From positions 186,001-250,000 of the forward strand of contig JARUPY010000027.1 in the NCBI GenBank assembly GCA_029817715.1: 64,000 nucleotides of DNA. Direction: 5' to 3'. Source of the DNA: Melastoma dodecandrum (taxonomy: Eukaryota > Streptophyta > Magnoliopsida > Myrtales > Melastomataceae). Below the pieces are notes generated by a model. The model was given only the letters and a program-made list of their open reading frames with translations, was not told where the DNA came from and did no database searches. The position numbers and the translations under genes were made by a program. Shown in pieces: positions 2,312 to 39,996 of this stretch (positions are counted from its first letter, which is position 1; each line of letters begins with the position of its first letter).

Positions 2312-3262
2312 ATCTCTTAAGGAGATGAGGATTGTTAATTGCGAGAAGTTATGTTCCCTCCCCGATGAGGAACTGCCTGCTTCGCTTAGAAGATTGATGC
2401 TTGAGTGCTGCCCAAGCATGTCCCAGTCACAACTGATCAGCAGCAGACTTCCCGATTCTCTCGAGGAGATTTCTCTTTTAATCTGGAGGGACTTGTGTCG
2501 ATTACGAAATTAGTTGTTGTTGGTAGTCCCTTCTCTCGATCTCTACGGAAATTGGAAATTAAGAATTGCAGAAGCTTGACGACTTTGACGGACAGCTTGC
2601 AACACCTGTCCGCCCTCTCCCATCTCACTCTCCAGGATTGCGCAGCATTAGAGATGGAGATATTCCCTTCACTCCCTTGTAGCCTGTCCATGTTTAAGCT
2701 TGCCGGATGTTCAAAGGTGAAGTCTTTGCTTCAAAAGATGCACCACCTCACATCCCTCAAATCGTTATTTATTTACAACTGCGAAGGCATAACAAGGTTA
2801 CCACTGAGGGGAGGACTGCCTCCAAATCTAGAATCTCTTTGGATTGGGGAATGCAGAAATCTGAATCAACCAATTGAGGAGTGGGGGTTGAGGTGCCTCA
2901 CCGCCTTACGAACATTGAGCATTTGGGGAGGGATGGGACGCGTGGATGAGATGGAGAGTCTTCCTCCTGCCGATGATGCAGACTGGAGTCACCATCTTCC
3001 TTCGTCCCTCTTGAGGTTGTACATTGGGAAAATGGAGAAGTTGGAGAGCATGGGTGGGGGACTCAGGCACCACCTCACCTCCCTTCAATCTTTGGAAATT
3101 TAGAACTGTCAGATGTTGAGGTGTTTACCAGTCGACGGCCTCCCCGACTCCCTTGAGTATCTCAACATTTGGGGATGTCCAGAGTTGGAGGAGAAATGCA
3201 GAAAGGTGAAAGGAGAATATTGGCCACACCTCCGACTCATTCCAAAATTTAATATTGAGTAG
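2312..3262 (+). pseudogene. NLR resistance-gene 3' relic (LRR domain only)
   Basis: C-terminal leucine-rich-repeat part of a CC-NB-ARC-LRR protein. LRR units are clear (LRKLEIKNCRSLTTL, LTSLKSLFIYNCEGI, LESLWIGECRNLNQ), ending with the usual tail (LNIWGCPELEEKCRK, then PHLRLIPKF) and a TAG at 3260-3262. Lesions: the 5' part is missing at the retrotransposon edge (2311/2312), there is a frameshift near 2480, and an in-frame TAG at 3101-3103 after LQSLEI. It closely resembles the LRR part of the second NLR at 14.3-15.2 kb (shared SQSQLISS/LPQSQLISS and RNLNQPIE segments), so the two are probably tandem duplicates. Such LRRs act in pathogen recognition; this copy is non-functional. Confidence 0.9.
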
Positions 3263-3651: not shown

Positions 3652-3660
3652 TTTTTTAAA

Positions 3661-3785
3661 GGCTTAATTATCAAATATGTCCTCAACTTTACTTATTTTT
3701 TCCGATCTAGCCTGAAGTTTGAATCGTATCTTGGGGGGGCCTGTACTTGTGGTCTGTTTTAATTTTGTCTCAATTAATTTTTCTC
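3661..3785 (+). repeat. Left TIR of the virus-bearing element
   Basis: Starts GGCTTAATTATCAAATATG after the 9-bp ttttttaaa. It ends about 30 bp before the viral primer-binding site. Confidence 0.6.
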
Positions 3786-3816
3786 AGACAATAATAAACC
3801 TTGATTTTTCTTAAGC

Positions 3817-3829
3817 GGCTCTGATACCA
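3817..3829 (-). other. Initiator-Met tRNA primer-binding site of the caulimovirid
   Basis: On the minus strand TGGTATCAGAGCC, the standard site where initiator tRNA-Met primes minus-strand DNA synthesis in plant pararetroviruses. It lies ~35 nt after the leader ORF and ~30 bp before the left TIR. Confidence 0.9.
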
Positions 3830-3863
3830 ATAAGGATGAAATACAGGAGTCGAACTTAAGAAC

Positions 3864-4172
3864 TTAAGAAGGTTTTATTAATTGTCTTTGGCGTCGGCGT
3901 TCTACCAACCTCGAATACTCGTTTGAGTATTTCGAACTTGCCGTAAATCCCAGATTGGATTTACCTTCAAGGAAATATTCCTCAAATTCACTCTGCAAGA
4001 GAGTCAGCTCTTCTAATTTCTTAGAATAGCTATTCACAAGTTCAGTCAGCTGCTGGATTTGAGCTGAGATACTTGCCAGCCGATCTACTACCGTGTTTAG
4101 AAGTCCAGTAGCAGAATCCTTGCCCACACCATGATCCAAATGTAAGAGCTCGGGGTTTGGACAATCAGTCAT
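3864..4172 (-). CDS. Small ORF in the viral leader (102 aa)
   Basis: ATG at 4172, between the presumed RNA start and the primer site. The product is hydrophilic with a heptad-like, probably coiled-coil middle (LLNTVVDRLASISAQIQQL, then EELTLLQSEFEEYF) and a basic tail (ERRRQRQ). Caulimovirid leaders often contain short ORFs, and coiled-coil virion-associated proteins are known in the family. Whether this is such a protein or only a leader uORF is open. Confidence 0.45.
   Translation of the reverse strand: MTDCPNPELLHLDHGVGKDSATGLLNTVVDRLASISAQIQQLTELVNSYSKKLEELTLLQSEFEEYFLEGKSNLGFTASSKYSNEYSRLVERRRQRQLIKPS
3874..3879 (-). terminator. Possible viral poly(A) signal
   Basis: AATAAA on the minus strand, inside the 3' end region of the leader ORF sequence, ~45 nt before the primer site. 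In caulimovirids the poly(A) signal lies between RNA start and primer site, which fits in order. Confidence 0.4.
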
Positions 4173-4428
4173 AAGACTCTTGCTTTCGCAATTGTCGTGC
4201 CTTTTGCACCAACCTTCAAGATCTTATTAGATCAATCAGATTACCATAAACTATACAACGGAAAGTTTATCATACCTTAATCCAGTGGGTTGCTTAGAGG
4301 GTTCACCAAGCTTCCGCAGTAACGGAGATCCAAGAGTTGCACAATTCTCACTTCTAGAGAATTCAGCGAACGCATTCGCAAACCGGAGAGGCTCTTCTGT
4401 GTCATTCCAATGCCCTTACCATGAGGGT

Positions 4429-4437
4429 CTTATATAG
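4429..4437 (-). promoter_or_regulatory. TATA box of the viral pregenomic promoter
   Basis: On the minus strand CTATATAAG, in the intergenic region after ORF2. A start ~30 bp downstream (~4400) would give a leader of ~570 nt to the primer site at 3829, similar to known caulimovirid leaders. Confidence 0.6.
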
Positions 4438-4771
4438 ACACTCCTCATCCAAGGTTTCAGCCCAAGGTTTTACTCCCTCCAAGGTTCTCGATCCTTCGAT
4501 CCGACCTTTCGTTAGTCTTAACCAATATAGATTAATTCTAACCACCTTACTCTTGGTTCCTTAAGGTATTCGGAGGACGATTCAGAGATTTTCTTACTCA
4601 AGAATTTTTTGAGAGAGAATTTCTCTATTTGATTCGCCTCCCCAAATGAGGTAGAGGGCTTGTGAATATATACACAAAGGAGCTGGTGCCTATGCACTGT
4701 TTGCCAGCTCAAAAGTAAAAGGAATCTAAACTATTACAAAAGTTAGTGGGGTCCTAATGTCCGAAAATGTC

Positions 4772-7048
4772 CTAGTCTAACTTTATGCAGTTGTTTTCTC
4801 CCGTCTGCATTGGTGCGCTATCTTGGGAGACTCCTTTGTTGGCGTTTGTTATCTCGCCAACTTCTTCTTTCTCTGAGAGTCCCATCTGGTCTTGAACTGC
4901 TTCAAGAATCTGTTGTGATATTTGTTGGGTTCTCTCATCATGCTCGATTTGCTGATTCAAGGTCTTGTCGGTGAAATCAGCAATCTTGCTCCAAACCTCG
5001 AAGGTGTCGGTTCGGAGATGCAACTCAGAGTTTTCTCGCCTCCAGAAACTATCTAGAAGATCGAGCATTCTCTGCCATCCTCGGTCTCCTGCTTGTTCAT
5101 CGATGAAGCTTAAATTTGACCGAAGAATCGTGACGGTGACTATACCATCACAGAGCACGTAATATTCGTCCTTGCGGGCTAACACATGCTCTAGCACGTC
5201 TTTAAGGAACTCAACTTTTATGGCCTTTCGGACAGTCTTGTCCTTGTAGTATTTCCGCCATAACCCTCTCTGATCGAGGTCTTGTTTATGAGGTTCCGTC
5301 ATACGTCTACTTTCACACGGATGGATGTCCCATACTTGCAGATTTTGAAGTATTACCTTCCCATACTGCGGATGGTCTTCTTCCTCCATCATTGTGCTAG
5401 TAATCAACGCCGTGGCATACTTTGGTCCGTAGCCTAGGCATCCGAGTATATACCTTACTAACGTAGGCAGGGGTTCCATACATTCTGGTTCTGATCTGTC
5501 GATCTCCAGTATGTCCACAAACCCAGCATACACATAAGGCGCTGCTATTCCCACCATATCTGAGTGTATTCTCAGAGACGGCCACTTCCCCGATATCCAG
5601 TGTAGATACGGTTGAAGCACAGTGTTTTCCTCAAGAGAGGATTCACTCATGTCTACTGTTACCCTCGGGACGTCATATTCTCTAACTTCCCCCGGTATTA
5701 TAGACATCGTTGTGGAGAATATCTGCTGCCTTTCTTTTTCAAAACGAGACAACTCCTCCTCACCTGAAGCCATTACAGATAGTTTGAACTCCAGATCTTT
5801 GATGTACTCAACTGTCTTTCTTGCGAAAAACTCAATCTGGCGGTTGTCACCACGCTTGACGCCACCTATGAGTCCTCCACAGACTACAGCCGCATCCCAA
5901 CTTAGGGATTCGTCCTCAAATGAGTCCTCATCAAAAAACCAGGATCCTCCCAGATCCTTTTGGGTATTCCCATTATGGCCTTTGCCATTGTGGTTCTTAC
6001 CCCCGTGACTGTTGTCACCAGACTCCTTGAATGAATCTCTTACAGGAATTGCTTCCTCAAGGCTTTCTTTCTTTTCAAGATTACCTTCCAATGCTGCGTA
6101 AGCACCTCCGAAGTCGAAGTATTGCTCACACTCCATTGCAGCCGCTTCCTCTGGTTCTCCCCTGGGTTCAGGGTCTACCACTTGGATTGGCTCGCCAATT
6201 ATGGCCTTAAACTTAGCCTCTTCTTCAGCGTACTGTGTTTCCATATTTTCCTTCTGTTCCTCCTTGCTTTGTAACAAAGCCTTGTAGGATTTTACAGCCT
6301 GATTAATGGAAATTTTCTGCTCTTTGGCTAAGTTGTTTCTGCAGTAGTTGAACTGCTCTATGGTCAACGGAGACCACCAAGGTTCTTCAACCTTTCCGTC
6401 CTTCTTAGGACCATCTTTTGCAGAATCATCCTCTTTTGGACCAGAAGACCCAAGCCTCTTGGCTTTCCTCTTCTTCCTGGCTTTTTCCTTTGACTCGGCT
6501 TTTGCCTTGTCTTTCAGATCTGCCATTTCCACATCTCCTCTGGAGCTTTCCTCCTTTGAATCTGTCATCTTCTTCTGAAGATCTTTATTCACATCTCTTT
6601 CGGAGTTGGTGTTTCCCTTCTCCTTCAGATCTGTCTTCCCCTCCTGGGAAACTCTCGCTTTCTCCTTGGGATTGGTTATTACCTTTCCCTTAGATCTAGC
6701 CATTCCTTTCAAGGATTCTTTCGCCTTTCCCTTAGATCTGGCCTCAGCCTCTTTGGGATTAGCCATCTCCTTCTGGAGATCTGGTTTCGCCTTACTTTCG
6801 GAGTCAGCTTTTGCTTTCTCCTTAAGTTCAGCTTTCCCCTTCTGGGAATCCGCAGTTTTCAGCTTCTTGGGACACTCATAAGAGCGATGCCCGAGTTGCT
6901 TACACTGCCAGCAAAGCACTGCTGCCTTCGTTCCTGAAACAGAACCAGCATCACTATGCTCACCATCTCCCTTGTTAGGACATACCTTTCGGGAGTGTCC
7001 CTCTTTCTTGCATCCCCAGCATATCTTTCTCTTTGCAGCAGGATCCAT
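4772..7048 (-). CDS. Caulimovirid second ORF, double zinc knuckle, unknown function
   Basis: An open frame of about 758 codons from the ATG at 7048, overlapping the end of the polyprotein by ~74 bp in another frame. An upstream non-ATG extension reaches 7081. Near the N-terminus are two CCHC knuckles, CWGCKKEGHSRKVCP and CWQCKQLGHRSYECP, ~35 residues apart. A very Lys/Glu-rich, repetitive segment (units such as KGKAK, KEKAK) follows for ~170 residues, then a conserved-looking region from PWWSPLTIEQFNYCRNN, an acidic linker with a HNGKGHNG stretch, and a globular-looking C-terminal half (SWDAAVVCGGLIGG..., WISGKWPSLRIHSDMVG). Zinc knuckles suggest nucleic-acid binding. I do not recognise the C-terminal domain. 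The overlap suggests translation by reinitiation or leaky scanning, as an inference. Confidence 0.8.
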   Translation of the reverse strand: MDPAAKRKICWGCKKEGHSRKVCPNKGDGEHSDAGSVSGTKAAVLCWQCKQLGHRSYECPKKLKTADSQKGKAELKEKAKADSESKAKPDLQKEMANPKEAEARSKGKAKESLKGMARSKGKVITNPKEKARVSQEGKTDLKEKGNTNSERDVNKDLQKKMTDSKEESSRGDVEMADLKDKAKAESKEKARKKRKAKRLGSSGPKEDDSAKDGPKKDGKVEEPWWSPLTIEQFNYCRNNLAKEQKISINQAVKSYKALLQSKEEQKENMETQYAEEEAKFKAIIGEPIQVVDPEPRGEPEEAAAMECEQYFDFGGAYAALEGNLEKKESLEEAIPVRDSFKESGDNSHGGKNHNGKGHNGNTQKDLGGSWFFDEDSFEDESLSWDAAVVCGGLIGGVKRGDNRQIEFFARKTVEYIKDLEFKLSVMASGEEELSRFEKERQQIFSTTMSIIPGEVREYDVPRVTVDMSESSLEENTVLQPYLHWISGKWPSLRIHSDMVGIAAPYVYAGFVDILEIDRSEPECMEPLPTLVRYILGCLGYGPKYATALITSTMMEEEDHPQYGKVILQNLQVWDIHPCESRRMTEPHKQDLDQRGLWRKYYKDKTVRKAIKVEFLKDVLEHVLARKDEYYVLCDGIVTVTILRSNLSFIDEQAGDRGWQRMLDLLDSFWRRENSELHLRTDTFEVWSKIADFTDKTLNQQIEHDERTQQISQQILEAVQDQMGLSEKEEVGEITNANKGVSQDSAPMQTGENNCIKLD

Positions 7049-10000
7049 CTGCAGAATTTTTTGAAAGAGAGGTGTTTGCAAGTTCTCTAGAGAGAGAGTC
7101 AGCTATTATGTTGTGGTCGGACTTGATGTATTCGACCTCGTATTTATAATAGCTTAATTGTTCTTGCAACCTTAAGAGTCTAGTTTGCCTAGCTTCCTTA
7201 AGATTCAGACTCATAAACCTTTTTACATAGGTCGAGTCAGATCGCACTAAAAATGCTTTCGGTGCCAAAAAGATGTAAAAAGCCTTTATTCCATATTTTA
7301 AGGCTAATACTTCCTTTTCATGTATCGGGTACCGTAGTTCGTACCCCTTGAAGCTTCCCGACCAGTATTTGCACACCGGTTCTGGTTTGCGTCCTCTAAT
7401 TTTGAGGACTGCTCCCCAATAATTTTCAGAAGCATCAACTTCCAAGACTAACTCGTCCTTATCCGAAGGTATAGCAAGTTGTGGTAAATTTTTTACCTTT
7501 GCTTTAATCCTTTTAATGGATTGAGTGTCTTCATCTTCCCATTTCCAAGGATTCGTAGAAGAAGTTTTCTTCGCAATCCTACTTAGGTCTCGGGAAAGAT
7601 CTTTCACAAACTTTCTTGCATAGTTAGCGCATCCACAAAATCTTTGGACTTGCTTCCTATCCTTGAGTCTATCAGGAAAATTAACTATCTTCTCAGCAAT
7701 ATGATTTTGCAGTTTTATTTTTCCCTGCTCAATTTCCATGCCTAGAAAGTTAACTGATTCCTTAAACCATTCTATCTTCTTTTCTGATAGAATCATACCT
7801 TCTCGTCGGAAAATATCAGTCACCTGATCTAGGTGCCTCATGTGTTCATCTTCAGACTGACTGTAGATTAGCACATCGTCAATATAGACCGCACAAAATT
7901 TTCGGATATGCTTAAAGGCATTATCCATTTTGCGCTGAAATACTCCTGGAGCATTTTTCAGACCGAATGGCATAACTAACCATTCAAACATTCCTCGCGG
8001 AGCATTGAAGGCAGTTAGAGGAACCGACTCTTCTTCCATTTTGACTTGCCAGTATCCACTTTTCAAGTCGAATTTAGAAAAGTATTTTGGTTGACTCAAA
8101 CTAATCCTATCAATAAGATCTCCTGCAGTTGGAATCTTATAGCCATCGTCTTTTGTAGCTTTGTTAAGCTTCCGATAATCTATAACCATTCGTGCTTTAC
8201 CTCGCACCTGCTCGGCATGGTTAATTACCATAAAGGCTGGACTAGAATGCGGACTGTAACTGTCCCTTATCAAACCCTTTCCAAGCAACTCAGGAATTTG
8301 TTTATCAAACTCCTCAACCATCTCAGCCGTATACGTAATGTTTCTGGCTCTTATTATGGTTCCGGGATCTTTCAACTCTAATTTAACCTTTAGGCCATTT
8401 CGAGTCCATAACTTCAGCGGATCTTCACTGAAGTTATCGGCAAGTTTTATCAGGAATTTATCCCATTTCATTCCTGTTAAGTTTACAGCCATACACACTT
8501 TCTGTTTTGGATTGGTAAACAGGTCGTCATACCAGCTATAATTACTGGTATCTGTTGGAGAAAACAGGGTTTGTTCCCATGATTCGTTCTCATCCAACCG
8601 CATATCACCACGTTGAGCTCGCACTCTGAAAGCTCTTTCACATGGGATATTATCACAGTATTCTGTCCGTTTTACCGGATAAAAGCCAAATTTTAACCGA
8701 AGTCTAGGCTCTTGTAGAATACTTATTTTTACCCCACCTATGGAAACATCATTTTCATTCTGCACAAAAGGAAGGTTTTCCTTTTGTCCTTTTAAAAAGG
8801 CGTTACCAATAATGATGTCGGCCTCTAATAAAGGATGTGCAAGAATCTCTTTAATGATGAACTTTTGTCCACCAATAAAGACAGGCACGTTGCTTGCCTT
8901 GTGACCAACAATTGTGGCCATACCATCGACGTTAACCATGTGGATGGGTTTCTGCAGTGGTTCCCACCACTCATCTGGCAAAGCATTGAGTCTAGCACAC
9001 GTTATGCTACACCCCGTGTCTATCAGAGTATCCAGTGAATACTCATAATATCCAGGAAATTTGAAAGTTAGAGCCACATATGTGCTCATGTCTGTCTTCC
9101 TGACACTAAACCCAATATTCGCAGGTACACTTTGGGATGGTTCTATCATCCTCCAGATCTCGTCTATCGCAATAGATCTTTGCTTGGCTATCTGCTCGAT
9201 AACCTTACAAACTTCAGGAATCTCAGATAAAGAGCTACCAGTATTGGTTACTCTTAACATTCGTATAGACTCCTCTCTCGGTTGATCTACAGGGTCTTCA
9301 TAGACTGGTAATGATACTTGTCTATACCCCACGATTCTACCCGTATGTTGCGACGGGGTTCTCGAATCAACAGACCTTCGAGACGTCTCTTCTATTAGTG
9401 GAGGTGCGCTTGCAACCTCTGGTCTGGAGACTATTACGTCTTCTCCCACATCACTAGCTCTTGAAGAGACTTCAGAGGGCGTTCTATTGAACGGTTCTCT
9501 CAGGATTGGTATCCTCACAGGCAGATGCCTGTCAGCCCTTTCGCTAAGCATAGGCAAATGCCTATCAGCTCTAAGACGGTCCCTTGACGGTTCTCCCAAC
9601 ATCAAAGTAATCTCGTTACCTCTTTGTCGGATATTGGCCGCACTAATTGGCCTAGAGCTATTACCAGGTTCAGTCATAACCCAGTTTCTTGGCCAGGTTA
9701 ACTCTAATGGGTTTACCTCTCGCCTGTGAAACTGTTGGTAGTTATTATGACCTTCTTCAAACAACTCAGTAAGTCTTGAGATGTTCCTCACACCAGGACT
9801 AGTTGTATTTACCAATCGGTAAATCACTCTAGTGTGATACGCCAAGAACTTGGCCTGGGAATTCATTCTATCCATATTCATTGATTTGATCCTTAAGGTT
9901 AATGAATTTCCCAAACATCGATCGTTCAGAGCCATCATGAAATTTGGATGGACCTGGAACCATACAGGGCCATGCGCTAGGTTGGCCTGTATTCCTGATA

Positions 10001-12197
10001 TCAGCTGATCTCTAAACTCTCGCCAACGTTTATCGATCACTGCTGCTATCACAGGACTATCCGCTGGTAAATGAAACAGCGGAATTAATCCTACTTGGAT
10101 CAACCCAATGTGTATATAGTTATATATACCTCTCGCACGTTGCATGGTTTCCCGTATGCGTTGTACGTTGAGTAATGGGATATCCAAAGTCTCAAGTTCC
10201 GTACTTGTTACTTGAGTCGTTGCTTCTGCTTGCGAGATGTCTATTATCGATCTAAAATTAAATCTTGATATATTATAGACTTCCCTCACATTAACATTAG
10301 GCAACCTCCATTCCAGTACTGACTGGGATGGATCTTCGTACTGGTGGAATTCCTCCAGTACCTGATTCGATGCTTCCAACGGAATCATCTCATCACCATC
10401 TTCGTTCTGCACTGCTCTCATCATGAACAGATGCATTTTCCAAAGATCAGAATCTTCCTCTGAGTCTGTAGCATAATCAGATACTACCTCGTAAATTGAT
10501 TCTACTTCCGAGTCTAAGTTGGAAATTTCTTGCTCATCAATTGGTTCATAAGCAAGGACTTCTTCCTCATGACTCCTGTCATCCAGGAAGACCATACGGA
10601 GTCTCTCTCTCCTTTGATTCTTCTTTGGACAACTATCTGCTTTGTGGTCTTTTGAGCCACAAAACCAGCAACAATTACAGCTGCTCAAGGGTTTCCCTTT
10701 TGGACATTTAGGTTCTCTGCCATGCTTTCTTTTGAAAGCATCAACCCTATCTTTATCCTTTAGGTTGTCCCTTCTCCTTACAAACCTTCTGGGCTTGTAA
10801 GCAGGACCTCCTCTTTTCTTATGCTGGACGTCCTTCTTGGGCCAAACTTTCCTTTTGTTGTACCCAACAAACTTCCTCTTATGAGGAAAATCTCTTCTCT
10901 TCAAGGAGTTTCCTGGGGTACTGCGAGTATCGCATCCATACCTTCCAGGAACGTATTCTATCTGAGAACAACAGCTCTTATTTAGGTAAGGTAGCTTCTT
11001 AGCTGCCTCTTTTACTTGGAGCTCAGTACATGCTTTACGCATTGCGTACTTCACCGCCTGAATTTTACCTCCGAGTCCAGAGACAATTTTTTCTTCACTC
11101 AGGAGTAATTCATAGGCCTTTTGCGCCACTTCCGGCCAAGGTTCAGGAAGTTTTGCAAAAAAGGTTCCCAATATGAACTGTTGAGAGACTACATCCAGAT
11201 TGTAGTAATACTTCTGGAATTCACATACGTAGCTATCAAACCAGCACATATCGCAGATTTGTAGTTTAACCAGAGCGGTCAAAGACTGCTCTTTCTCCAC
11301 GGTCTCAGTGGATAACGAGAAACCACAGAACTCTCGTTTCAGGGCATCAGCGATTATTGCCAATACTCCGTCAACCGTCAACGCCTGATCTATCTTTTCC
11401 TTAATGTCTGTATGTGCCACTAAGGTTTTCCAATATTTCTGCGCTGTACCCATGAGGGCTGCTACACATAATTCGTAGACCGCTCCGGGAGGTACTCCTC
11501 CTGCAGATGCCGTCATTCGAATAAGTGATAACCACTCATCTATCTTTTCAGATACATGCTTTTCGCAATCTATGTCTAGAAAAGCACCAGGGGTAATTAT
11601 TGGCTTTAAAATATTATCCCTAGGGACAAACTCTTGTTTAGTCCGATGAGGATAATCGGGCCTGTAAATTTCCCTTTTTGCAGTTACCAGTTCATTAAAC
11701 GTTCTGTTGTCTAAATGAACTGGGGTATCTTCTGCCAGACCTAAGGCTTTCCTTAAGTCTTTTGCCAACTCCCCGCTCTGGGAGTTCAAGTTTGCGCTTC
11801 GCTTTTGTGAGTCTGAAATGAAAGGAGCTACTGACTCTCTATACATCTCATCCACACTCTTGCCTTGACTCTGTTTGGTATTTCTTCCTCCCAGATTCAA
11901 TCTTTCGACTGGTTTTCCTGTTGTACTTTCCAGTCCAGAGGTCGCCTCGGCTTCAGGCCTCTTTAAACCTCTTTCTCTTTCCAGGGCGTCTAACATTGTA
12001 TTTACAATGGAGCCTACTTCCTTCGCCATTTGGTTTCGGCTTTCAAGACTTTCATTGCTCCCTTGAATTGTTAGCTGAGTTAAAATATCATTTATACTCT
12101 TGCTAACTCCAAAAGGAGATAATCTGGCCTCTGGAACGAACTCCAACCTCGAAGGAGTTCCAGAAGGATTTCCTGAAGATTTTCCTTCTCCAGCCAT
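6975..12197 (-). CDS. Caulimovirid polyprotein: coat/Zn-knuckle, movement, protease, RT, RNase H
   Basis: An open frame of 1,740 codons from the ATG at 12197. Rough residue positions: coat-like region ~200-420; basic stretch (KRK, KKR, RRR clusters) ~440-480; CCHC zinc knuckle CNCCWFCGSKDHKADSCP at ~505-523, typical of the capsid C-terminus; acidic segment ~540-620; 30K-type movement-protein-like domain ~680-810 (IYNYIHIGLIQVGLIPLF, then GPVWFQVHPNF); aspartic protease ~1050-1065 (LDTLIDTGCSITCA, DTG active site); reverse transcriptase ~1290-1480 (FDLKSGYWQVKM, VMPFGLKNAPGVFQ, YIDDVLIYS with both catalytic Asp); RNase H from ~1580 (LEVDASENYWGAV). Catalytic motifs look intact. The zinc knuckle precedes the movement-like domain, the reverse of the order usual in badnavirus-type polyproteins. 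Function in a living plant is not shown. Confidence 0.9.
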   Translation of the reverse strand: MAGEGKSSGNPSGTPSRLEFVPEARLSPFGVSKSINDILTQLTIQGSNESLESRNQMAKEVGSIVNTMLDALERERGLKRPEAEATSGLESTTGKPVERLNLGGRNTKQSQGKSVDEMYRESVAPFISDSQKRSANLNSQSGELAKDLRKALGLAEDTPVHLDNRTFNELVTAKREIYRPDYPHRTKQEFVPRDNILKPIITPGAFLDIDCEKHVSEKIDEWLSLIRMTASAGGVPPGAVYELCVAALMGTAQKYWKTLVAHTDIKEKIDQALTVDGVLAIIADALKREFCGFSLSTETVEKEQSLTALVKLQICDMCWFDSYVCEFQKYYYNLDVVSQQFILGTFFAKLPEPWPEVAQKAYELLLSEEKIVSGLGGKIQAVKYAMRKACTELQVKEAAKKLPYLNKSCCSQIEYVPGRYGCDTRSTPGNSLKRRDFPHKRKFVGYNKRKVWPKKDVQHKKRGGPAYKPRRFVRRRDNLKDKDRVDAFKRKHGREPKCPKGKPLSSCNCCWFCGSKDHKADSCPKKNQRRERLRMVFLDDRSHEEEVLAYEPIDEQEISNLDSEVESIYEVVSDYATDSEEDSDLWKMHLFMMRAVQNEDGDEMIPLEASNQVLEEFHQYEDPSQSVLEWRLPNVNVREVYNISRFNFRSIIDISQAEATTQVTSTELETLDIPLLNVQRIRETMQRARGIYNYIHIGLIQVGLIPLFHLPADSPVIAAVIDKRWREFRDQLISGIQANLAHGPVWFQVHPNFMMALNDRCLGNSLTLRIKSMNMDRMNSQAKFLAYHTRVIYRLVNTTSPGVRNISRLTELFEEGHNNYQQFHRREVNPLELTWPRNWVMTEPGNSSRPISAANIRQRGNEITLMLGEPSRDRLRADRHLPMLSERADRHLPVRIPILREPFNRTPSEVSSRASDVGEDVIVSRPEVASAPPLIEETSRRSVDSRTPSQHTGRIVGYRQVSLPVYEDPVDQPREESIRMLRVTNTGSSLSEIPEVCKVIEQIAKQRSIAIDEIWRMIEPSQSVPANIGFSVRKTDMSTYVALTFKFPGYYEYSLDTLIDTGCSITCARLNALPDEWWEPLQKPIHMVNVDGMATIVGHKASNVPVFIGGQKFIIKEILAHPLLEADIIIGNAFLKGQKENLPFVQNENDVSIGGVKISILQEPRLRLKFGFYPVKRTEYCDNIPCERAFRVRAQRGDMRLDENESWEQTLFSPTDTSNYSWYDDLFTNPKQKVCMAVNLTGMKWDKFLIKLADNFSEDPLKLWTRNGLKVKLELKDPGTIIRARNITYTAEMVEEFDKQIPELLGKGLIRDSYSPHSSPAFMVINHAEQVRGKARMVIDYRKLNKATKDDGYKIPTAGDLIDRISLSQPKYFSKFDLKSGYWQVKMEEESVPLTAFNAPRGMFEWLVMPFGLKNAPGVFQRKMDNAFKHIRKFCAVYIDDVLIYSQSEDEHMRHLDQVTDIFRREGMILSEKKIEWFKESVNFLGMEIEQGKIKLQNHIAEKIVNFPDRLKDRKQVQRFCGCANYARKFVKDLSRDLSRIAKKTSSTNPWKWEDEDTQSIKRIKAKVKNLPQLAIPSDKDELVLEVDASENYWGAVLKIRGRKPEPVCKYWSGSFKGYELRYPIHEKEVLALKYGIKAFYIFLAPKAFLVRSDSTYVKRFMSLNLKEARQTRLLRLQEQLSYYKYEVEYIKSDHNIIADSLSRELANTSLSKNSADGSCCKEKDMLGMQERGTLPKGMS

Positions 12198-12322
12198 TCA
12201 GAAAATATTATTTTGAGACTTTGAAAATAAGGTCAAAGTTTAGGACCCGGAGAGATATTTTCCACACTTGAGGATAGATTTGAAAATTTTCGTAACTTGG
12301 GGATATATTTGATAAAGCGGCC
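12198..12322 (-). repeat. Right TIR of the virus-bearing element
   Basis: Read on the minus strand it starts GGCCGCTTTATCAAATATA and ends directly at the ATG of the viral polyprotein frame. A normal viral leader between primer site and first long ORF is therefore not present at this end. Confidence 0.6.
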
Positions 12323-12331
12323 TTTTTTAAA

Positions 12332-16728: not shown

Positions 16729-17775
16729 TCAATCAAAAGTTGTTGATGATGATTTCCAAATCTTGTAGCATTCCTTGGCTCGCGAGTCGTTCTTTGCTAT
16801 TGATCGGACCAGCTCCTTCGTCACCAGGCACTTCTCCTCGGCATACAACTTCTCTTGAATCCTCTGCGATCCGAGGAGTGTCCCGATATTACCGACGGAC
16901 CGGCATCGCGGAACTTCCTCCTTCACCTGCAGTTTTGTTTTCCGCGAGCAATGTGAGCAGTTACTACGATCGTCGATGTTCTTGGAAAAAGAAAAGGTTC
17001 CTATCGGCTTTACCTCGTCAACGTTAAGACGAATGAGTTGAAGCATGCCGACCTGTGCTTGCAGGAACCTGACGTACTTGTGAGCTGCCTGCAGCATCTC
17101 GGCCGTGGTCATCTTCCGTCCGCCAGGGATGAGCCTCCCGAGCTCCGTCGTCTTCTCCGTAATCCTCCTCCTCCGCTCCCGAGCAGCCATGCTCTGCGCT
17201 GACAGGCTAGTCCTACCCTCGCTCTTCCCCTTCGTGCCGCTCCCACTCTCGCCATCACATCCCGTTCTGAAGCACCCATACTCACTCGGGAAAGGAAACA
17301 GCTCTGGGACTTCAGGTGACTGCAACCGCACAAACTCCGGGAACTTAACTGAACCCTCAGTCCTCTGCCTTTTAGGGTACAAGCCCTCGAGCCCTTCACT
17401 CGCAAGCACAAAATTACCGAGCAATCCAGGATCAAGCCAAGGCAACGGAGCAGCAGCACCGCTCGCATCACCCAAGCCCGAGCTCCCCTCAACCTCAAGC
17501 GACCCTAGGAGGAAGGGGTCCCCGAAGCAAGCAACGTCGTCGGGGCAAAAACCCGGTTCCCAGAAGAGCCGCGTGGGATCAATGTAGTTGAGGGGGACGA
17601 GATTACCCGAGCACGAAGCAAGGGCCATGTCAAAAGGCACCTAGCGAGAGATAAAACAAGAAAACAGATCACAAAAGAGGTGCGAAGAGTTGAGGGTTTC
17701 TAGTGAAACAACAAAGAACTGAAAGGGGGGGGATGATAGATACTAACTAACCAGAGAAGATTGTGTGGTTGCCAT
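16729..17775 (-). CDS. bHLH transcription factor, bHLH52/53-like
   Basis: Two exons on the minus strand give ~311 residues. Exon 1 is only 24 bp (17775-17752, MATTQSSL). The intron is 17751-17641 (donor GTTAGT, acceptor CGCTAG), and exon 2 runs 17640-16729 in frame (VPFDMALASCSGN...). The bHLH domain lies at about residues 155-210. The basic region is SAQSMAARERRRRITEKT; a short loop with IPGGRKM and helix 2 AEMLQAAHKYVRFLQAQVG follow. The C-terminal block LLGSQRIQEKLYAEEKCLV is typical of the bHLH52/53 group. The basic region has ER but lacks the canonical His of strict E-box readers. It should act as a nuclear DNA-binding regulator. No lesion is seen. If exon 1 is wrong, translation could start at the internal Met of MALASC. 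Confidence 0.88.
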
Positions 17776-26604: not shown

Positions 26605-28752
26605 TTAAGGGTACATATTCCACTGACCATAAACGGAGTTATCTTTGCAACGCATATCCTCGCCTAATCCGGAAGAAGTTTCACTACATACATTCGGCCG
26701 TTTCTCGTTATTGTTGCCCCGATCATAACCCCGTTCAGAGGGACCCGTGCACGTTTCTTCATTCATACCGTGAAAGACATACTCTTTAAGCTGGTTACCG
26801 AAATTAAATGTGACGCGATCATCAATACTTCTTACGCCTTCATTTTCCACAGTTCTACTCTCCAACTCCAACGTTAGTGACAGAATCTTTTTTTGCAGCA
26901 TCCGAAATGCTTTTTCTGATGAACCAGCAAGAAAACACATACGCCGGCATGCGGTCAGGAGAATACCTTATCGTAAACTATTGATGTCCACCCCGTATTC
27001 ACAGCCAGATGCAACTTCAGGATTTGCACTTTTTGCTAACTTTGTCCACCTCTTATTGACTAGATGCTTTGGTATGGTGAAGAATCCTTCAATTTTCATC
27101 ACGTGGAAGAGGTGTGCACACGGAAAACCAAATGTCTCATAATGTAAGCAGCTGCAGCTGAGTTGGACATTTTGTTTTGCAGATGACACTTGCACGCATC
27201 GACGCTCGCCGTCATAACACGAAATGCTGTATACCCTCGCTATATTCCCGTCGACTAAATCTTCCACATAGAAACGAGCTTCCTTTTTCATTTCTGACTG
27301 AACTCTACGGAAAGAACTGAGGGTGTACAACTGACTTTTATCCTCCTCAAGTCGACGCAACATCGTACTTGGCCTGAATGCCTTATGCATTGATTTGAAG
27401 TCCTCTTCGTATTGCTTGTGACGAAGATCAGCAACTGCGCGCTCGAAATTGTTAACGAAGTCATGCAGTTTATGTTTGCTGTCGACATATCCCTTCATGT
27501 AACGATGCATTCGTTCGCATCGTTGAGTGCTTCTAAGTTCTGCCCAGAAATGACCATGAAGATACGTTTGCCACCACATATGTCGGCATGCATAAATTTG
27601 TTGTAGCCATCTAACGCTTATGGATCCTGTATGGCTAAGTAAAGACGACCACTCCTCTTCAACTTCCTCACTTGGTCTACTATTGTACATGAATGACGAA
27701 AGACGAGCTCGCATTCCAGGGTCCTGTACACGACAATTGATATTCCGACTAAAATGCCAGAGACATAACCTATGCCTTGACAATGGCCATACTTCTCTCA
27801 CTGAAGCAATCATCGCTTTGTCAGCGTCAGTGACCACGCTGACCGGATGTTTTCCTCCCATTATCTGTGTATGAGTACGTAGGAGCCAAGTGTAGTCCGC
27901 AATGGTTTCATAACTCATCAAGGCAAACCCAAACACAGTAGTTTGATGGTGATGATTGACCCCGATGATGATCACCATTTGCATTCCATAATTGTTTGTC
28001 TTGAACGTTGAGTCTAGTGCTACGACATCGCCGAATGATTGGTAATCAGTGATTGAGGTACTGTCCGCCCAATATATGCGTGTCACTTCATTATTTTCCA
28101 CATGTGATTTGAACGCCATACCACTGTCACTGTTCTTCCTACATAGGAGATATGCAAGGACTGAATCACAACGACCAGCCACCCCAGCAGAGTCTTCCTT
28201 CAACTTCCGGTTATTTAGGTCCTTCAATAGGAAACCGGCACGTGAGTGTCCACCAGATGCGTGTACTACTAGTCGCATAATATCACACTGTCTAAAACCA
28301 ACGTCAAGCATTCGACGGACAAATGTCATATCTTCGTCGCAAACTTGCCGCCTTTCTCGCATAAAATATGACAGACATTCGCTCACCATGTCATGATTGT
28401 GTTCCAACTTAATTGCGACGAAATTCCATTGCCCATTAACCTCCACTCTCGCTTTAAAGAAACACTTGCAACCATTCTTCACAGATGCACGAACCCGACT
28501 TCTCGCTGTCAACATAGGAACATCGGAACACCCGCCTTCCCTTGAACAAACCCACTTTCTCATCACGCATTCACCGTTTCTTAATTTCTGCCGATCTCTT
28601 TTCCGAACAGAAAACCCATGAACCATTGCATACATTTTAATGAACTCTTCAACTTCTTCGGCAGTACTAAAACACATATTCAACATCCGTTCTTCGTTCA
28701 TATCACTGATTATATTGAAGAAGTGCTGAACATCATGGTCACCTACATTCAC
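26605..28752 (-). pseudogene. MULE transposase, FAR1/FHY3 type, with a C-terminal frame break
   Basis: The main frame 28752-26968 (594 codons) has in order a FAR1-type DNA-binding domain (MCFSTAEEVEEFIKMYAMVHG, CMRKWVCSREGG-like Cys pattern, CKCFFKARV...LEHNHDM), a MULE DDE transposase domain (DVVALDSTFKTNNYGM, VVTDADKAMIASV, CLWHFSRNI), and a SWIM zinc finger (CSCLHYETFGFPCAHLFHV). After the stop at 26968 a second frame (to 26605) continues with CFLAGSSEKAFRMLQKKI...LELES, as in FAR1-related proteins. A frame break near 26960 or an unrecognised intron therefore lies between. The first ATG is at MNEERM. An acceptor-like AATGTAG at 28744-28750 hints at an upstream exon. It would bind the TIRs and catalyse excision. 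Confidence 0.88.
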
Positions 28753-29323
28753 AGTAATGATGAAAGGTTATCAATACATTAGGGATGATGAATAATAAAT
28801 GCAAGATCAACATCATGTTCTTCACCGAATCTCGACTTCTCCGCTTTCAATACACTTTTCATTTCTTCCCACCAACGACGACCCAAACCCGAAAACCAAC
28901 ACAATCCCAACCAGATGAACTAGCTGCAGCCCAACAACACTCCCCTGTCGAACCAGCTGGGGCGGAAGAAGATGACCAGCAAATTCCAGCTGCTGGCGAA
29001 GAGGAGGGACGATGCCGAAGACCTCGGACGATGCCCTCCGGCCGAAGATCTCGGAGGATGACCTGCGGAATGTCTCTGGGTTGAAGACGACGGCGAACTG
29101 AAGATCTGGGTAGCACCCGACCTGCAGCAGGAAATCGGGGGCGACGTGTAGCCAGGAAACCCAAATCCAACGACAATTGCTTTACCAATATTATATTAAA
29201 TGCGGATGAGAGTTTCTGAACGTTAGTAAATTTTACGACTAATACACCTCATAATTAGTAATTACATTAGTAATATTTACGCAGTTCAACAGAATGATAA
29301 CAAAATTAGTAATATGTTTAGTA
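28753..29323. other. Transposase upstream region of the MULE
   Basis: This is the 5' flank of the transposase. A 109-codon minus frame (29188-28859), rich in Arg, Ser and Pro, lies in GC-rich DNA and has no domain. It may be 5' UTR or an unresolved first exon. Confidence 0.4.
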
Positions 29324-30002
29324 AATTAGTAACAAGTGTAGTAACCAGGGTAGAGAGGTAATTTCACAACATAAATAGGTTCGGTGTTAGGTTCGGGAAC
29401 ACTGTTCAAAGTAGTAAATTTGTTTGTAAACGACTTCATTTTTTAGTAACTGATTACTACTTTTTTTAGTAAAAAGGGCTCAAAATTAGTAAAAATTACT
29501 AAGAGGAAGAGCTTTTTACTAACAAAACCGCCAGAATTAGTAAACAGATACTACTTATCGGCGTCATTCGTACAGTCCAAAGTAGTAAAATTTACTACCT
29601 TTTTTACTAACATTGCGCCGACTTTACTAAAACATTTCCGTTAGTAACGTCAACGCAGATGTAGTAAAAAAAGTAGTAAATTTTACTCCTTTTTTACTAC
29701 AACCGGTTTGACTTTACGAAAATACGTTACTAATGGAAATGTTTTAGTAAAGTCAGCGCAGCAGTAGTAAAATTGAACTGGAGTGAACAGTGAAAAAGTA
29801 GTAAAATTTACATACTTTTTTACTACCTTTGCGTTGACTTTACTAAAGGTTGACCGAAAAGTAGTAAAATTTACTACTTTTTTTACTACTTTCGCGTTGA
29901 CTTCGTTAGTAACGGTCAACTTTTAGTAAAATTTACTACTTTTCCTTAGTATTAATTAGTAAACTACGTAATGGTTACGTGCACCTACCGTTAGCCGCTT
30001 CC
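29324..30002 (-). repeat. Right TIR of the MULE (~679 bp)
   Basis: Inverted copy of the left TIR, nearly identical over most of its length, lacking one ~83-bp block around the ...ACTTTACGAAA...TAAAGTCAAACC repeat. Confidence 0.9.
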
Positions 30003-35042: not shown

Positions 35043-37584
35043 TCATGTAGGCGCTCCCGGTACTTCTTGGACGACGTATGGGCCATCCCACTTTGATGTG
35101 AATTTGATTCCGGTCTTATGCGTGACGATTATGGGTCTTCGCACCGCCAAAACAAGGTCACCTACTTGAAAGGAGCGAGGTCGCACTTTCTTGTTAAAAG
35201 ACTTTGACATCCTTGCTTGATAGCATTCAATTCGCTGCTGGGCTTCAAGACGTTTCTCATCCAAAGCTTCTAGTTCCTGTAAGCGTAGTCGCGCATTATC
35301 CTCTTGACAAAGTCCCTCTTGTATGGCTATTCTCAGCGACGGTATTTGTTGTTCAAGTGGAAGGACCGCTTCAACACCGTAGACCAATGAGTTTGGCGTC
35401 ATTTGAGTCGAGTTCTGTACGTCGTACGATACGCCCATAAAGCTTCTCCGACTCGTTCATTCCAATCTCTTCTAGCTTTATCGACCACCTTCTTTAGGAG
35501 ATTGCACAGCGTCTTATTGAATGCTTCTGCCAACCCGTTTGCGGCCGCATAATACATGGAAGAGTTATATTGTTTGAAACCAAATTGCTCGCAAAATTTA
35601 TCCATGGCCTTATTAGAGAAATTCCGGCCATTATCAGTAATGATATAGCGAGGCACTCCATAACGAAAAATGATATTATTCTTGATGAAGGTGATCACAG
35701 TCTCCTTCTTCACTTCCCGAAAGGATGCAGCTTCTGCCCATTTTGAGAAATAGTCCGTCGCTGCTAGGATATATGAATGGCCCCCTGACGATTTAGGAGT
35801 TATGGTCCTACAACATCTAACCCCCAAGCTTCAAATGGCCAAGATGCTACAGTTGGATGAAGTGGCTCGGGTGATTGATGAATGAAGTTAGCGTGAAACT
35901 GACAAGCTTGACACTTCTTTGCATATTCCATACAATCTTTTACCATTGTTGGCCAATAGTAGCCCATTCTCTTCAATTGGAAGTGAAGTTTAGGGCCTGA
36001 TTGATGAGCTCCACAAACTCCAGAATGCGCCTCTTCTACCGCTCTCAAGGCTTCCTCAACACCAAGGCATCGCAAGAACACTCCTTCAAAGGATCGTCGG
36101 TAGAGAGTATTCTTAAAATATATGAATCGAGGCGCTCTTCTCCTCACATCCACTTTTTGTCGCGGGTTGTTGGGAAGCTTTCCATGCTCGAGAAAGTCAA
36201 TGAGTGGTTGTCTCCAATCCTGGTCTTCTATATTAAAGACGGATACGAGATTACCTTCGTCCGTTTCCTTCTCATCATGAATTGGTGGAACCACCCATGC
36301 TTGACATAACCGGATGCCAACCTCCTTATCCACCAAAGTAAGTGCAGAAGCTAGAGATGCCACGGCATCGGCTTGTGCATTTTCCTTTATCGGTATATGA
36401 CTTATTGTAATGTCTGGGAACCACCCTGCGAGTTTAACCGCATAGTCATGATAAGGCAGAAGCTCTGGCTTGCGAACCTCGTATGTGAATAAAAGTTGAT
36501 TAATCACAAGCTTGGAGTCTCCATATACCCTCAAACTATGTACTTTATTATCCATGGCCATTTCTAACCCGAGTATGAGAGCTTGATACTCAGCCATATT
36601 GTTTGAGCATAACTGAGTGAGGGTATATGCATAAGGGATGATATCTCCATCGGACGTGACGAAGACAACTCCAGCTCCCGCGCCTCTTTGTGTTGCTGAT
36701 CCGTCAAAGAACATTTTCCATGGAGGGGGAACATCAACCAACATTACTTCCTCGTCGGGCAGTTCTTCCGATATTTTCCAACTATCTGGTATAGGATAGT
36801 CTGCCAAGAAGTCAGCTAAAGCTTGTCCCTTTATAGCCTTTTGAGGTACATACAGGATCTCGAACTCTTGGAGCACAAGTGCCCATTTTGCGAAACGACC
36901 AAATAAAACCGGCCTTGACATTATATACTTGAGAGGATCTGCCCGTGATATGAGACGAACAGAGTGTGCCTGCAAATAATGTCGCAGCTTTTGTATAGCA
37001 AACATTAAAGCCATACAGGTCTTCTCAATTGGAGAGTAATTCAATTCCGCTCCGGTTAAAGTCCTGCTCAAATAATATAGGGCATTTTCTTTTCCATTAT
37101 CGTTGTCCTGAGCTAACAGAACTCCTAACGAAGCTTCTTGTGCTGCTATATAAAGTATGAGGGGTTTTCCTTGGATTGGAGCATTTAGAACCGGTGGCTT
37201 TGACAAATAAGCCTTTATGCTGTTGAATGCATTTTCACACGCTTCATCCCACTCAAAAGGAGTACCTTTCTTCAGCAATCTATGAAAGGGATGGCATCGT
37301 CCGGCCAAGTTTGATATAAACCTTCGAATGTATGCAAGCTTCCCTTGAAGGCTCTTCAACTCATGTATATTCCTTGGCTCTGGCATCTTCATAATTGCAT
37401 CTATCTTTGATTGATCGAACTCTATGCCTCGATGCCGAATGATGAAGCCAAGGAATTTGCCCGAAGTGACCCCAAATGCACACTTCATGGGATTCATCTT
37501 CAGTTGATACTTACGCAGTCTGTCAAATACTTTTCTCAAGTCATTAATATGATCATGCCTTTGTTTGGACTTCAACCAAATCAT
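35043..37584 (-). pseudogene. Tat element RT C-terminus, dual RNase H and integrase
   Basis: 37584-35800: RT thumb (KVFDRLRKYQLKMNPMKCAF), the Ty3-type RNase H (LYYLSRTLTGAELNYSPIEK, ADPLKYIMSRP), then a second, archaeal-type RNase H (FFDGSATQRGAGAGVVF, NMAEYQALILGLEMA, VYGDSKLVINQL, NAQADAVASLA) with its acidic residues. The integrase HHCC zinc region (CGAHQSGPKLHF, CQACQF) and first Asp (WGLDVVGP) follow. After frame breaks, 35827-35399 has TDNGRNF and LAEAFNKTL (second Asp, Glu), and 35438-35043 is the C-terminus (VGDLVLAVRRP, KFTSKWDGPYVV). Confidence 0.93.
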
Positions 37585-39141
37585 TCACGTAACACTCTAC
37601 GTTTTTATGTAGCATATCATCGAAGATGCGTTGCGTTGCTCTTTGATAAGTTGCTCTTGCATTCTTCAACCCAGAAGGCATCACCTTATAACAGTAGATT
37701 CCTTTCGGTGTACGAAAAGCTGTCATTTCTTCGTCTTTTAGATCCATTCGAATTTGATTATATCCTGACGATCCATCCATAAAACTGAGGGCTTCATAGC
37801 CAGTGGTAGCATCTACCATCATCTCAGTGATCGGAAGAGGAAAATCATTCTTCGGACATGAATTGTTGAGGTCGCGGAAGTCAACACAAACGCGAAGTTG
37901 ACCATTCTTTTTCTTGACTGGTACAATATTTGCGATCCATGTTGGGTACTTCACTTCCTGAATAAATCCAGCTTCGATAAGTTTATTGACTTCAGCTTCT
38001 ATCAAGGGAATCAACTCCGAACAAAATGCCGTTGAGCTTGCTTTATGGGACGAACCCCATGCTTCACAGCTAACTTGTGAACTGCAATTTTTGGGTCAAG
38101 GCTGGGCATTTCTTTGTAGCTCCATGCGAAGACGTCTTTGTATTCCTTCAACAACTGAATATATAATTCCTCTTCTCCAGGGCTTAAACTTGCATTGAGG
38201 AAAGTGGGACGATGATTCCCTTCTTCTCCAAGGTCAACTTCCTTCAATTCATCGACAGTTGACTTCTTCCCATCCTCTAATACTTCAGGGGCATCTTCTG
38301 CATCATCTTCTTTGTGAGATGCGTCTTCATCGGCCTCTGAAGTCGTAACATGATAAGAAGCGACTTCATCTTCAACATTATCTTGAGATAACTCCTCATT
38401 GCCATTTGTAGTTATCCATGTCTTCGTGGTCATTTTTAACACTTCTCCAGTGGTCACCTCCACAACAGTTCGACGCTTCATCTGGGAAGGAATTTTACTA
38501 CGGAGATCATTTGTGTCTTCAATTATGATTGGGACGTCTTTCCTCTTGTCCACCCTCTTCCACACCATTCGACTTCTTGGAGTGTCGCCTAACCTTAGTC
38601 GCGCAGGTTTCCTAGCATCAATCCCTTCTTTTTGAGTGCCAAGTCTATCAAATACCAATCTTCGCTTAGACGGGACTCCAAGTCGATCAAATACTGAAGT
38701 TCTAGTTGATTCGACTGTACTTTCATCATCAGCTTCAATGTATTGAATCGAAGCATTCTTCGCCGGAGGGTTGACGGGCTTAGGAGTGACATATCCAAGA
38801 CCAGATTTTGATTTCTGATTATCATTTCTTGGATTAGTTTCTTTTGAGCCATCCCCAAGTGTCTTTAAATCCTCAGTGTAGCCAGCTGCAGAGATTAGCC
38901 TAAACGCATTTGGATCAAATCCGTTGGTGCGCCTGTCAGGCAATGAATCTGGATAAATAATTGCCCCCTGTTTAGGTCTAACAAAACCTTTTAAAGGCGT
39001 ACTTGTTTGAGCAATTGTCGTCATTTTCATCACTGGCCAGTTGAGTTCCTTTGGCACCACCATTTCTTCAGCATGGCTACTCACAAAAGGTGGTTCCCCG
39101 GCTTTTCGGAAGACTCTTGGGATATTGCGCAGGAATGGCAC
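37553..39141 (-). pseudogene. Tat element RT N-terminal part, active site mutated
   Basis: 39141-38011 is the linker between protease and RT (ESTRTSVFDRLG, PGEEELYIQLLKEYKDVFAW). After a frame shift near 38014 the RT begins (AEVNKLIEAGFIQEVKYPTW, RVCVDFRDLNNSCPKNDFPL, MDGSSGYNQIRM). The catalytic box reads YVND at ~37580-37591: AAT (Asn, 37583-37585) stands in place of the first Asp codon. VMPSGLKNARATYQ also departs from the usual MPFGLKNAGATYQ. Inactive. Confidence 0.9.
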
Positions 39142-39144
39142 ATT

Positions 39145-39996
39145 TTATTTAGGCTTATCATCCGTCCTTTCATTTTTAACTTTTGGATTAACTGAAGGTA
39201 CTTCTTGTTTAATAGGAGAAACTTCTACGTCCGATTTCTTCATGATATCCCTCTCAACCGGTGCAATCTTCAAGACTTTTTCTTCAGCATCGATACCCTT
39301 ATTAAAGTAAAATTTGGCATCGGCGAAGTATGACTCCGCTTCCGTAAAGAGTTTCGCATCTGCCCATACTGTGTGGGTTACCCCATCCTTCACAAATTTA
39401 AAGCATTGATGGAGCGTGGATGCAACAACTCCGTATTCATGCAGCCATGGTCGACCCAACAACATATTATAGGTGGTGTTGGAATCAATGACGTAAAACG
39501 TCGCTCCAGCTTCCATATCTCCTATAGTGAGGGTGAGACAGATCTTCCCAATGGCTCGTTCTCCCCCCTGGTTGAATCATTGGATTATCAGCCGGCTACT
39601 TGATAAATCATCAACCCCTAGCCCAATCTCCTTCAGGGATTTTAGTGACAAGATATTGACTGCTGAACCTGGGTCGACCAATAAGCGATTGACCTTCGTA
39701 CCATAAGCATATCCTGATACAAATAGCGGCCGATTGTGAGATCTGTGTTCTATAAGGAGATCTTCATCAGAAAATGTAATTGTTGCGCCATTTTCTCGTG
39801 ATTTCACAACATTCATCACTGTGGGATCTTCCGGTGTGTCAACCTTCGCGACCACCACTTCTTTGTTTGCATCAATGTGGTGACAGCTCCTAGGCAAATC
39901 TGCAAGTTTTCGAAAACATTTCGGAAAGAAATCCCATAACATAGTCGGGGTTGGCTTTTTCACGGACAGGATATCTAACGAACTCTCTTCTTTCAC
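39145..39996 (-). pseudogene. Tat element protease region
   Basis: The frame at 39996-39577 holds VNRLLVDPGSAVNILSLKSL, a retropepsin-like active site with DPG instead of DTG/DSG. After a frame break at ~39570 it continues (39516-39145) with YNMLLGRPWLHEYGVVASTL, the usual downstream protease motif. It would process gag-pol. Confidence 0.82.

Follow-up and report, generated by a model that had tools for sequence, protein, structure and literature searches.

The stretch of Melastoma dodecandrum DNA analyzed here (64 kb at its full length, referred to as the window; coordinates are positions in it unless a contig is named) contains at 3652–12331 a caulimovirid genome of approximately 8.66 kb, which lies on the minus strand inside imperfect terminal inverted repeats (TIRs) of approximately 124 bp and a perfect 9-bp target duplication. 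The duplicated sequence, ttttttaaa, is present at 3652–3660 and again at 12323–12331, as a first-pass annotation of the window had noted. The left TIR (3661–3784, plus strand) begins with GGCTTAATTATCAAATATG at 3661 and in the viral sense follows the primer site. The right TIR (12200–12322, minus strand) reads as the reverse complement of GGCCGCTTTATCAAATATA, ends at 12322 and in the viral sense stops just before the first open reading frame (ORF1), whose ATG (12197–12195) stands 2 bases past the end of the TIR similarity. The claim that these repeats are genuine is borne out by alignment of the two ends: the local alignment scored 82, whereas none of 500 shuffles exceeded 43, and a single one of 500 random window pairs reached that score. 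The identity of the two TIRs is 72.5% over 120 aligned bases.

ORF1 (6975–12197, minus strand) encodes a polyprotein of 1740 amino acids, which was searched against Pfam in three pieces. Within it we identified, all on the minus strand, the caulimovirid coat protein domain (PF22909, 10983–11297, 1.3e-08), the movement protein (MP) domain (PF01107, 9801–10238, 4.5e-19), the caulimovirid aspartic protease (A3; PF02160, 8802–9086, 1.7e-08, the domain being cut by the border of a search piece), the reverse transcriptase (RT; PF00078, 7731–8204, 2.8e-38), and RNase H (PF17919 and PF17917, 7146–7541). This is the gene set of the Caulimoviridae, and every domain scored above the Pfam cut-off. ORF2 (4772–7081, minus strand, 769 amino acids) has zinc knuckles near its N terminus according to Pfam, and direct repeats within it (6492–6865) encode a lysine-rich repetitive stretch. 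A primer binding site of the Met-tRNA type, with the motif TGGTATCAGAGCC, stands at 3817–3829 on the minus strand; it is kept with few changes in 11 aligned copies, and is also found beside a second type of TIR described below. The viral interior runs from the polyprotein ATG to beyond this site, as had been proposed. The opening of the viral genome falls between the primer site and the ATG of ORF1, where a TIR of approximately 124 bp fills either side. Neither the ORF1 pieces nor ORF2 contain the transposase domain of Mutator-like elements (MULEs; PF10551) according to Pfam.

The genome (373 Mb in 607 contigs) was searched by BLAST with the left end and with the right end, each of which gave at least 40 matches. 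Most left and right ends among the matches listed form pairs spaced by approximately 8.6 kb, found at dozens of sites whose flanks differ; about 10 of the listed left ends and about 10 of the listed right ends are unpaired. Both ends were read for 29 pairs, which together with the window copy form a TIR-chosen sample of 30; two left ends on contig C500, with no right partner among the matches listed, were excluded. All 30 copies have identical end bases, with duplications matching at 9/9 positions in 21 copies and at 8/9 in the other nine, and the identity between the two TIRs of a copy ranges from 68 to 78%. The copies on C117 and C366, and those on C427 and C261, have matching 150-bp flanks to the left and right and seem in each case to be one site represented twice, so that the sample covers 28 distinct sites. 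At G000:C261:2738790-2767394, where the flanks match those on C427, 28.6 kb separate the two ends of one copy, an indication of nested insertions.

To avoid selection by TIR, a further 20 copies were chosen from 150 scored RT matches (6088 first-look candidates), mostly with long open frames and outside the fetched pairs, and ends were looked for at the predicted positions. Inverted ends were present at the predicted places in 20/20, belonging to the TIR family of the window in 16; the duplications had at most one mismatch in 18 of the 20, and in 14 of the 16 window-family copies. Three copies (C253x, C265x, and C493) carry GAGCTTTGTACCTTTTTACC-type TIRs that are unrelated to the window family, with duplications of 10 bp, and one (C260) carries a diverged pair; the borders of these four were set visually before being verified with a script.

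Over both samples, the 50 copies occupy 48 distinct sites as judged by 150-bp flanks, with window-family ends in 46 (window included), the unrelated pair in three and the diverged pair in one. The duplications are perfect in 37 copies, have one mismatch in 11 and are worse in two (48/50 with at most one mismatch), and their length is 9 bp in 47 copies and 10 bp in three. When flanks were displaced outward as a control, a match of at least 8/9 was obtained in 0.25% of 2750 cases, and when left and right partners were swapped, in 3.2% of 2162. The AT content of the duplications is 95%, versus 65% for the flanks, and the 9-bp duplications have T at position 1 in 39/47 and A at position 9 in 37/47, a symmetrical target preference. 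The genome search for the TIR put forward in the first-pass annotation found the virus-transposon unit at many sites with different flanks.

The termini themselves were traced through the genome by exact match. The left 18-mer occurs 108 times (its reversed control 0 times), and in the first 30 occurrences by contig order, window included, it leads into viral sequence in 30/30; in two of these (L146 and L148) the viral match is weak (approximately 70% over 390 bases) and begins further in. The second type of TIR occurs 18 times and is on virus in 18/18, ten by reading and eight by spacing: three are the copies already read, seven run into the primer-site region, and eight lie approximately 4 kb from an RT match, as expected. 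Among the 30 of 108 and 18 of 18 occurrences checked there was no empty miniature inverted-repeat transposable element (MITE) bearing exactly these termini; MITEs with diverged termini would escape such a search. Approximately 270 bp from one left end (L149, G000:C94 near 2661400), another viral copy begins in head-to-head orientation. Two type-D left ends, L167 (G000:C34) and L172 (G000:C589), have an identical 40-bp flank and may represent a single site that was duplicated or entered the assembly twice.

We then compared the coding regions among copies by the Nei-Gojobori method, calculating the ratio of non-synonymous to synonymous divergence (dN/dS) over 21 copies and 210 pairs per region (7 copies and 21 pairs for the coat domain; the 21 copies of the ORF1 N-terminus set differ in part from those of the MP, protease, and RT set). 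The ratio is 0.036 for the coat domain, 0.078 for MP (9762–10268), 0.062 for the protease (8700–9089), 0.099 for RT (7722–8639), 0.100 for the ORF1 N terminus, and 0.151 for the MP–protease linker. The pieces used contain no stop codons, and dN equals or exceeds dS in one RT pair and one N-terminus pair, both sets including pairs with a dS of 0. Strong purifying selection acts on the coat, movement, protease, and RT regions. As the mean dS is 0.19–0.37, whereas the two copies of the duplications differ at 17/453 positions, most of the divergence predates insertion.

The copies are also mosaic. Between A_C274 and A_C598 the difference is 0.8% in RT and 13.6% in MP, and the type-D copies, which have unrelated TIRs, differ from the other groups by approximately 4–14% in coding segments but by 53–65% in the TIRs (group means), from which it follows that the TIR pair was exchanged. 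The two TIRs would be adjacent on a viral circle, so that one event could have exchanged both. Among 17 copies, the divergence of the TIRs is 0.09 in the outer 20 bp and up to 0.29 in the inner bins.

The TIRs seem to be part of a replicating virus lineage and to serve as its integration ends. We consider it likely that this is a caulimovirid lineage with Mutator-type TIRs in its own genome that integrates by means of a transposase, most likely a host Mutator-like enzyme acting in trans, because TIRs at both ends, target duplications, insertion at many sites, a fixed breakpoint, mosaicism, TIR replacement, and selection are found together. The fuller statement, a pararetrovirus with TIRs fixed in its genome, regular integration by a host Mutator transposase and TIR pairs exchanged between lineages, is in our view probable, if less firmly so. 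On the viral circle the TIRs would make up the leader, which runs from the Met-tRNA primer site to the start of ORF1, and the two ends would face each other. A transposase would recognize and cut these ends, of which the outer 20 bp are the least diverged, and the whole genome would be inserted once, opened at a fixed place, into an AT-rich target of the form T(A/T)7A, leaving a duplication of 9 bp, or 10 bp for the second TIR type. We infer that the donor would be a viral episome, the enzyme a host MULE transposase, and the TIRs derivatives of MULEs.

MULE domains are abundant in the genome, with at least 150 scored among 1241 first-look candidates (a count in which domesticated FAR1-like genes are not separated) and many in frames of 700–723 codons, which makes the action of a host enzyme in trans plausible. 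On C132, one MULE shows a candidate end of the TTTAGTAAA type, unlike the viral TIRs. The window itself contains a FAR1/MULE transposase-like ORF of 594 amino acids (26968–28752, minus strand) and beside it (29219–29944) many TTTAGTAAA-type inverted repeats, to which the end on C132 is similar.

Several observations weigh against this route. No autonomous MULE carrying these TIRs came to light; two MULE families were read at their ends, which are dissimilar. A TIR-TIR circle junction with a spacer of 0–9 bp has 0 matches in the genome, and no related record is present in the viral contig collection (viral_contigs). Transposition of integrated copies within the chromosomes may also play a part. 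Duplications are poor in C39 (7/9) and C566 (5/9, or 6/9 if shifted), and C260 has a diverged GGC-type TIR pair whose inverted similarity is weak, next to a 9-bp duplication. The divergence of the right TIR falls back to 0.04 in the bin next to the start of ORF1. The RT matches were ranked by protein similarity, which lowers the dN of RT, and copies with long open frames were favored; between them these choices lower the RT ratio and may lower the other dN/dS values. Coat and MP lie at least 1.5 kb from the piece used for the RT ranking. Finally, the copy at G000:C253:1612547-1617635 has both TIRs and an 8/9 duplication with its ends only approximately 5.1 kb apart, and has probably been shortened internally, as in deleted DNA transposons.

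One of the two readings offered by the first-pass annotation was a Mutator-type element with a virus as cargo. In the form of Pack-MULE-like cargo, Mutator-type elements would have captured caulimovirid DNA and the composite would have been copied by transposase alone, with the virus uninvolved. The TIRs, the 9–10-bp duplications, the abundant MULE domains, the 5.1-kb copy on C253 and the absence of a circle junction from the genome all agree with this, and the virus-transposon unit at many sites is the part of the earlier proposal that stands. Passive cargo is nevertheless too simple, because it would not require the purifying selection seen in the coat, movement, protease, and RT regions, and because copies are recombined gene by gene and related viruses have two or more unrelated TIR pairs in the same place; the dS is, moreover, far above the divergence of the duplications. 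We regard this explanation as unlikely. Mutator-like elements typically make 9-bp duplications (range 9–11 bp), and a Pack-MULE passively carries fragments of host genes. The window copy shares long TIRs and 9-bp duplications with both, but its content is a viral genome under selection (dN/dS of 0.036–0.10 in the domain regions) and it is not a Pack-MULE in this sense. The duplications of 9 or 10 bp, within the 9–11 bp of the superfamily, and the long TIRs agree with a non-autonomous Mutator element; the MULE transposase that an autonomous one encodes was not found in the ORF1 pieces or ORF2.

A second explanation concerns the origin of the TIRs and is compatible with integration by a host transposase: the inverted repeats could have begun as a hairpin of the viral leader, later used as ends by that enzyme. 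The termini are found only on virus, and in 7/8 copies the TIRs can pair in the viral sense at −68 to −94 kcal/mol, versus shuffled means of −24 to −36; the pairing in C260 is weak (−46.8 kcal/mol, the lowest shuffled value being −46.2). Such pairing is to be expected of any TIR pair, however, the fold of the left TIR by itself is not better than that of its shuffles (z 1.03), and three copies carry an unrelated pair, which must hence have been exchanged. Such an origin seems doubtful to us.

The virus might also encode a transposase or recombinase of its own, ORF2 for example, so that no host enzyme would be needed. ORF2 is conserved between M. dodecandrum and Melastoma candidum, has zinc knuckles and has no known function. 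Its Pfam matches up to an E-value of 10 are with zinc-finger families only (most weak matches having been dropped from the output), its homologue gives only a sub-threshold match with Arcadin_1, and no PDB relative was found by sequence for the C-terminal 390 amino acids. The AlphaFold model of ORF2 is unusable (a predicted local distance difference test score of 36) and neither supports nor refutes an enzymatic role. We hold an enzyme of viral origin to be improbable. The other proposal of the first-pass annotation, that the virus inserted by chance inside a MITE, draws on nothing beyond the TIRs of a single copy and is rejected as having next to no likelihood, given 48 distinct sites among 50 copies, nearly all with their own duplications, and no empty MITE among the termini checked.

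The nearest relative of the ORF2 protein, and the sole homologue found, is from M. candidum (83% over 63% of the length). The nearest RT protein is from the same species (88%), others reaching approximately 37–60% among the 120 of 842 matches listed, in a search whose length range excluded full-length polyproteins.

The window lineage shares its gene set, a Met-tRNA primer site and high copy number with endogenous caulimovirids such as the florendoviruses, endogenous petunia vein clearing virus, and the banana streak viruses. Those are described as having borders that are hard to define and as lacking long terminal repeats (LTRs), in contrast to the one fixed viral endpoint, the TIRs, and the target duplications of the window lineage. 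Caulimovirid integration is termed passive, accidental or speculative (PMC4241990, PMC10377300, PMC10741241, PMC8346255), and plant viruses are described as having no active integration route (PMC8346255). A coordinated integration process was thought unlikely by Geering (2014), who reported a bias to TA repeats (PMC4241990); an integrase core has been reported for petunia vein clearing virus (PMC10741241), and retroelement-like transposition is among the proposed routes of amplification (PMC9794742). The authors of CAULIFINDER saw no indication, in their benchmark, of chimeras of transposable elements and caulimovirids (PMC9719215), and a review of Teratorn terms the mechanism of endogenous pararetroviruses unknown (PMC10175614). 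A search of open-licence PMC, which covers neither subscription papers nor most preprints, yielded no account of a caulimovirid bearing both TIRs and target duplications.

Among DNA transposons, maize Mu has TIRs of approximately 215 bp and 9-bp duplications (PMC2774946). Teratorn, the piggyBac-herpesvirus fusion of medaka, likewise consists of a whole virus between the TIRs of a DNA transposon with target duplications (PMC10175614). It combines a herpesvirus with its own piggyBac transposase, whereas the window lineage is a reverse-transcribing virus in which no transposase domain was recognized. LTR retrotransposons have RT, RNase H, protease, and a tRNA primer in common with it, but make duplications of 4–6 bp and carry LTRs and an integrase; in the window lineage the duplications are 9–10 bp, no long direct repeat is present at the copy ends, and Pfam found no integrase domain in ORF1 or ORF2. 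Integration of the LTR type was rejected on these grounds. Elsewhere in the window, LTR-retrotransposon-like ORFs (RNase H, integrase zinc domain, gag) lie at 35800–41909 on the minus strand and a second gag-like ORF at 60734–61411 on the plus strand, together with a leucine-rich-repeat-like fragment (2405–3103, plus strand) and an ORF with a basic helix-loop-helix domain (16729–17640, minus strand).

At dozens of sites the ends, duplications, and target preference can be followed to the single base, and the question of integration is therefore directly testable. The findings suggest that this virus enters chromosomes through the cutting-and-joining enzyme of a host transposon, and not by accident. 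If true, this would offer an explanation for how a caulimovirid can attain a very high copy number, and would add to Teratorn another kind of union between a virus and a DNA transposon, with a class II integration route for a pararetrovirus.

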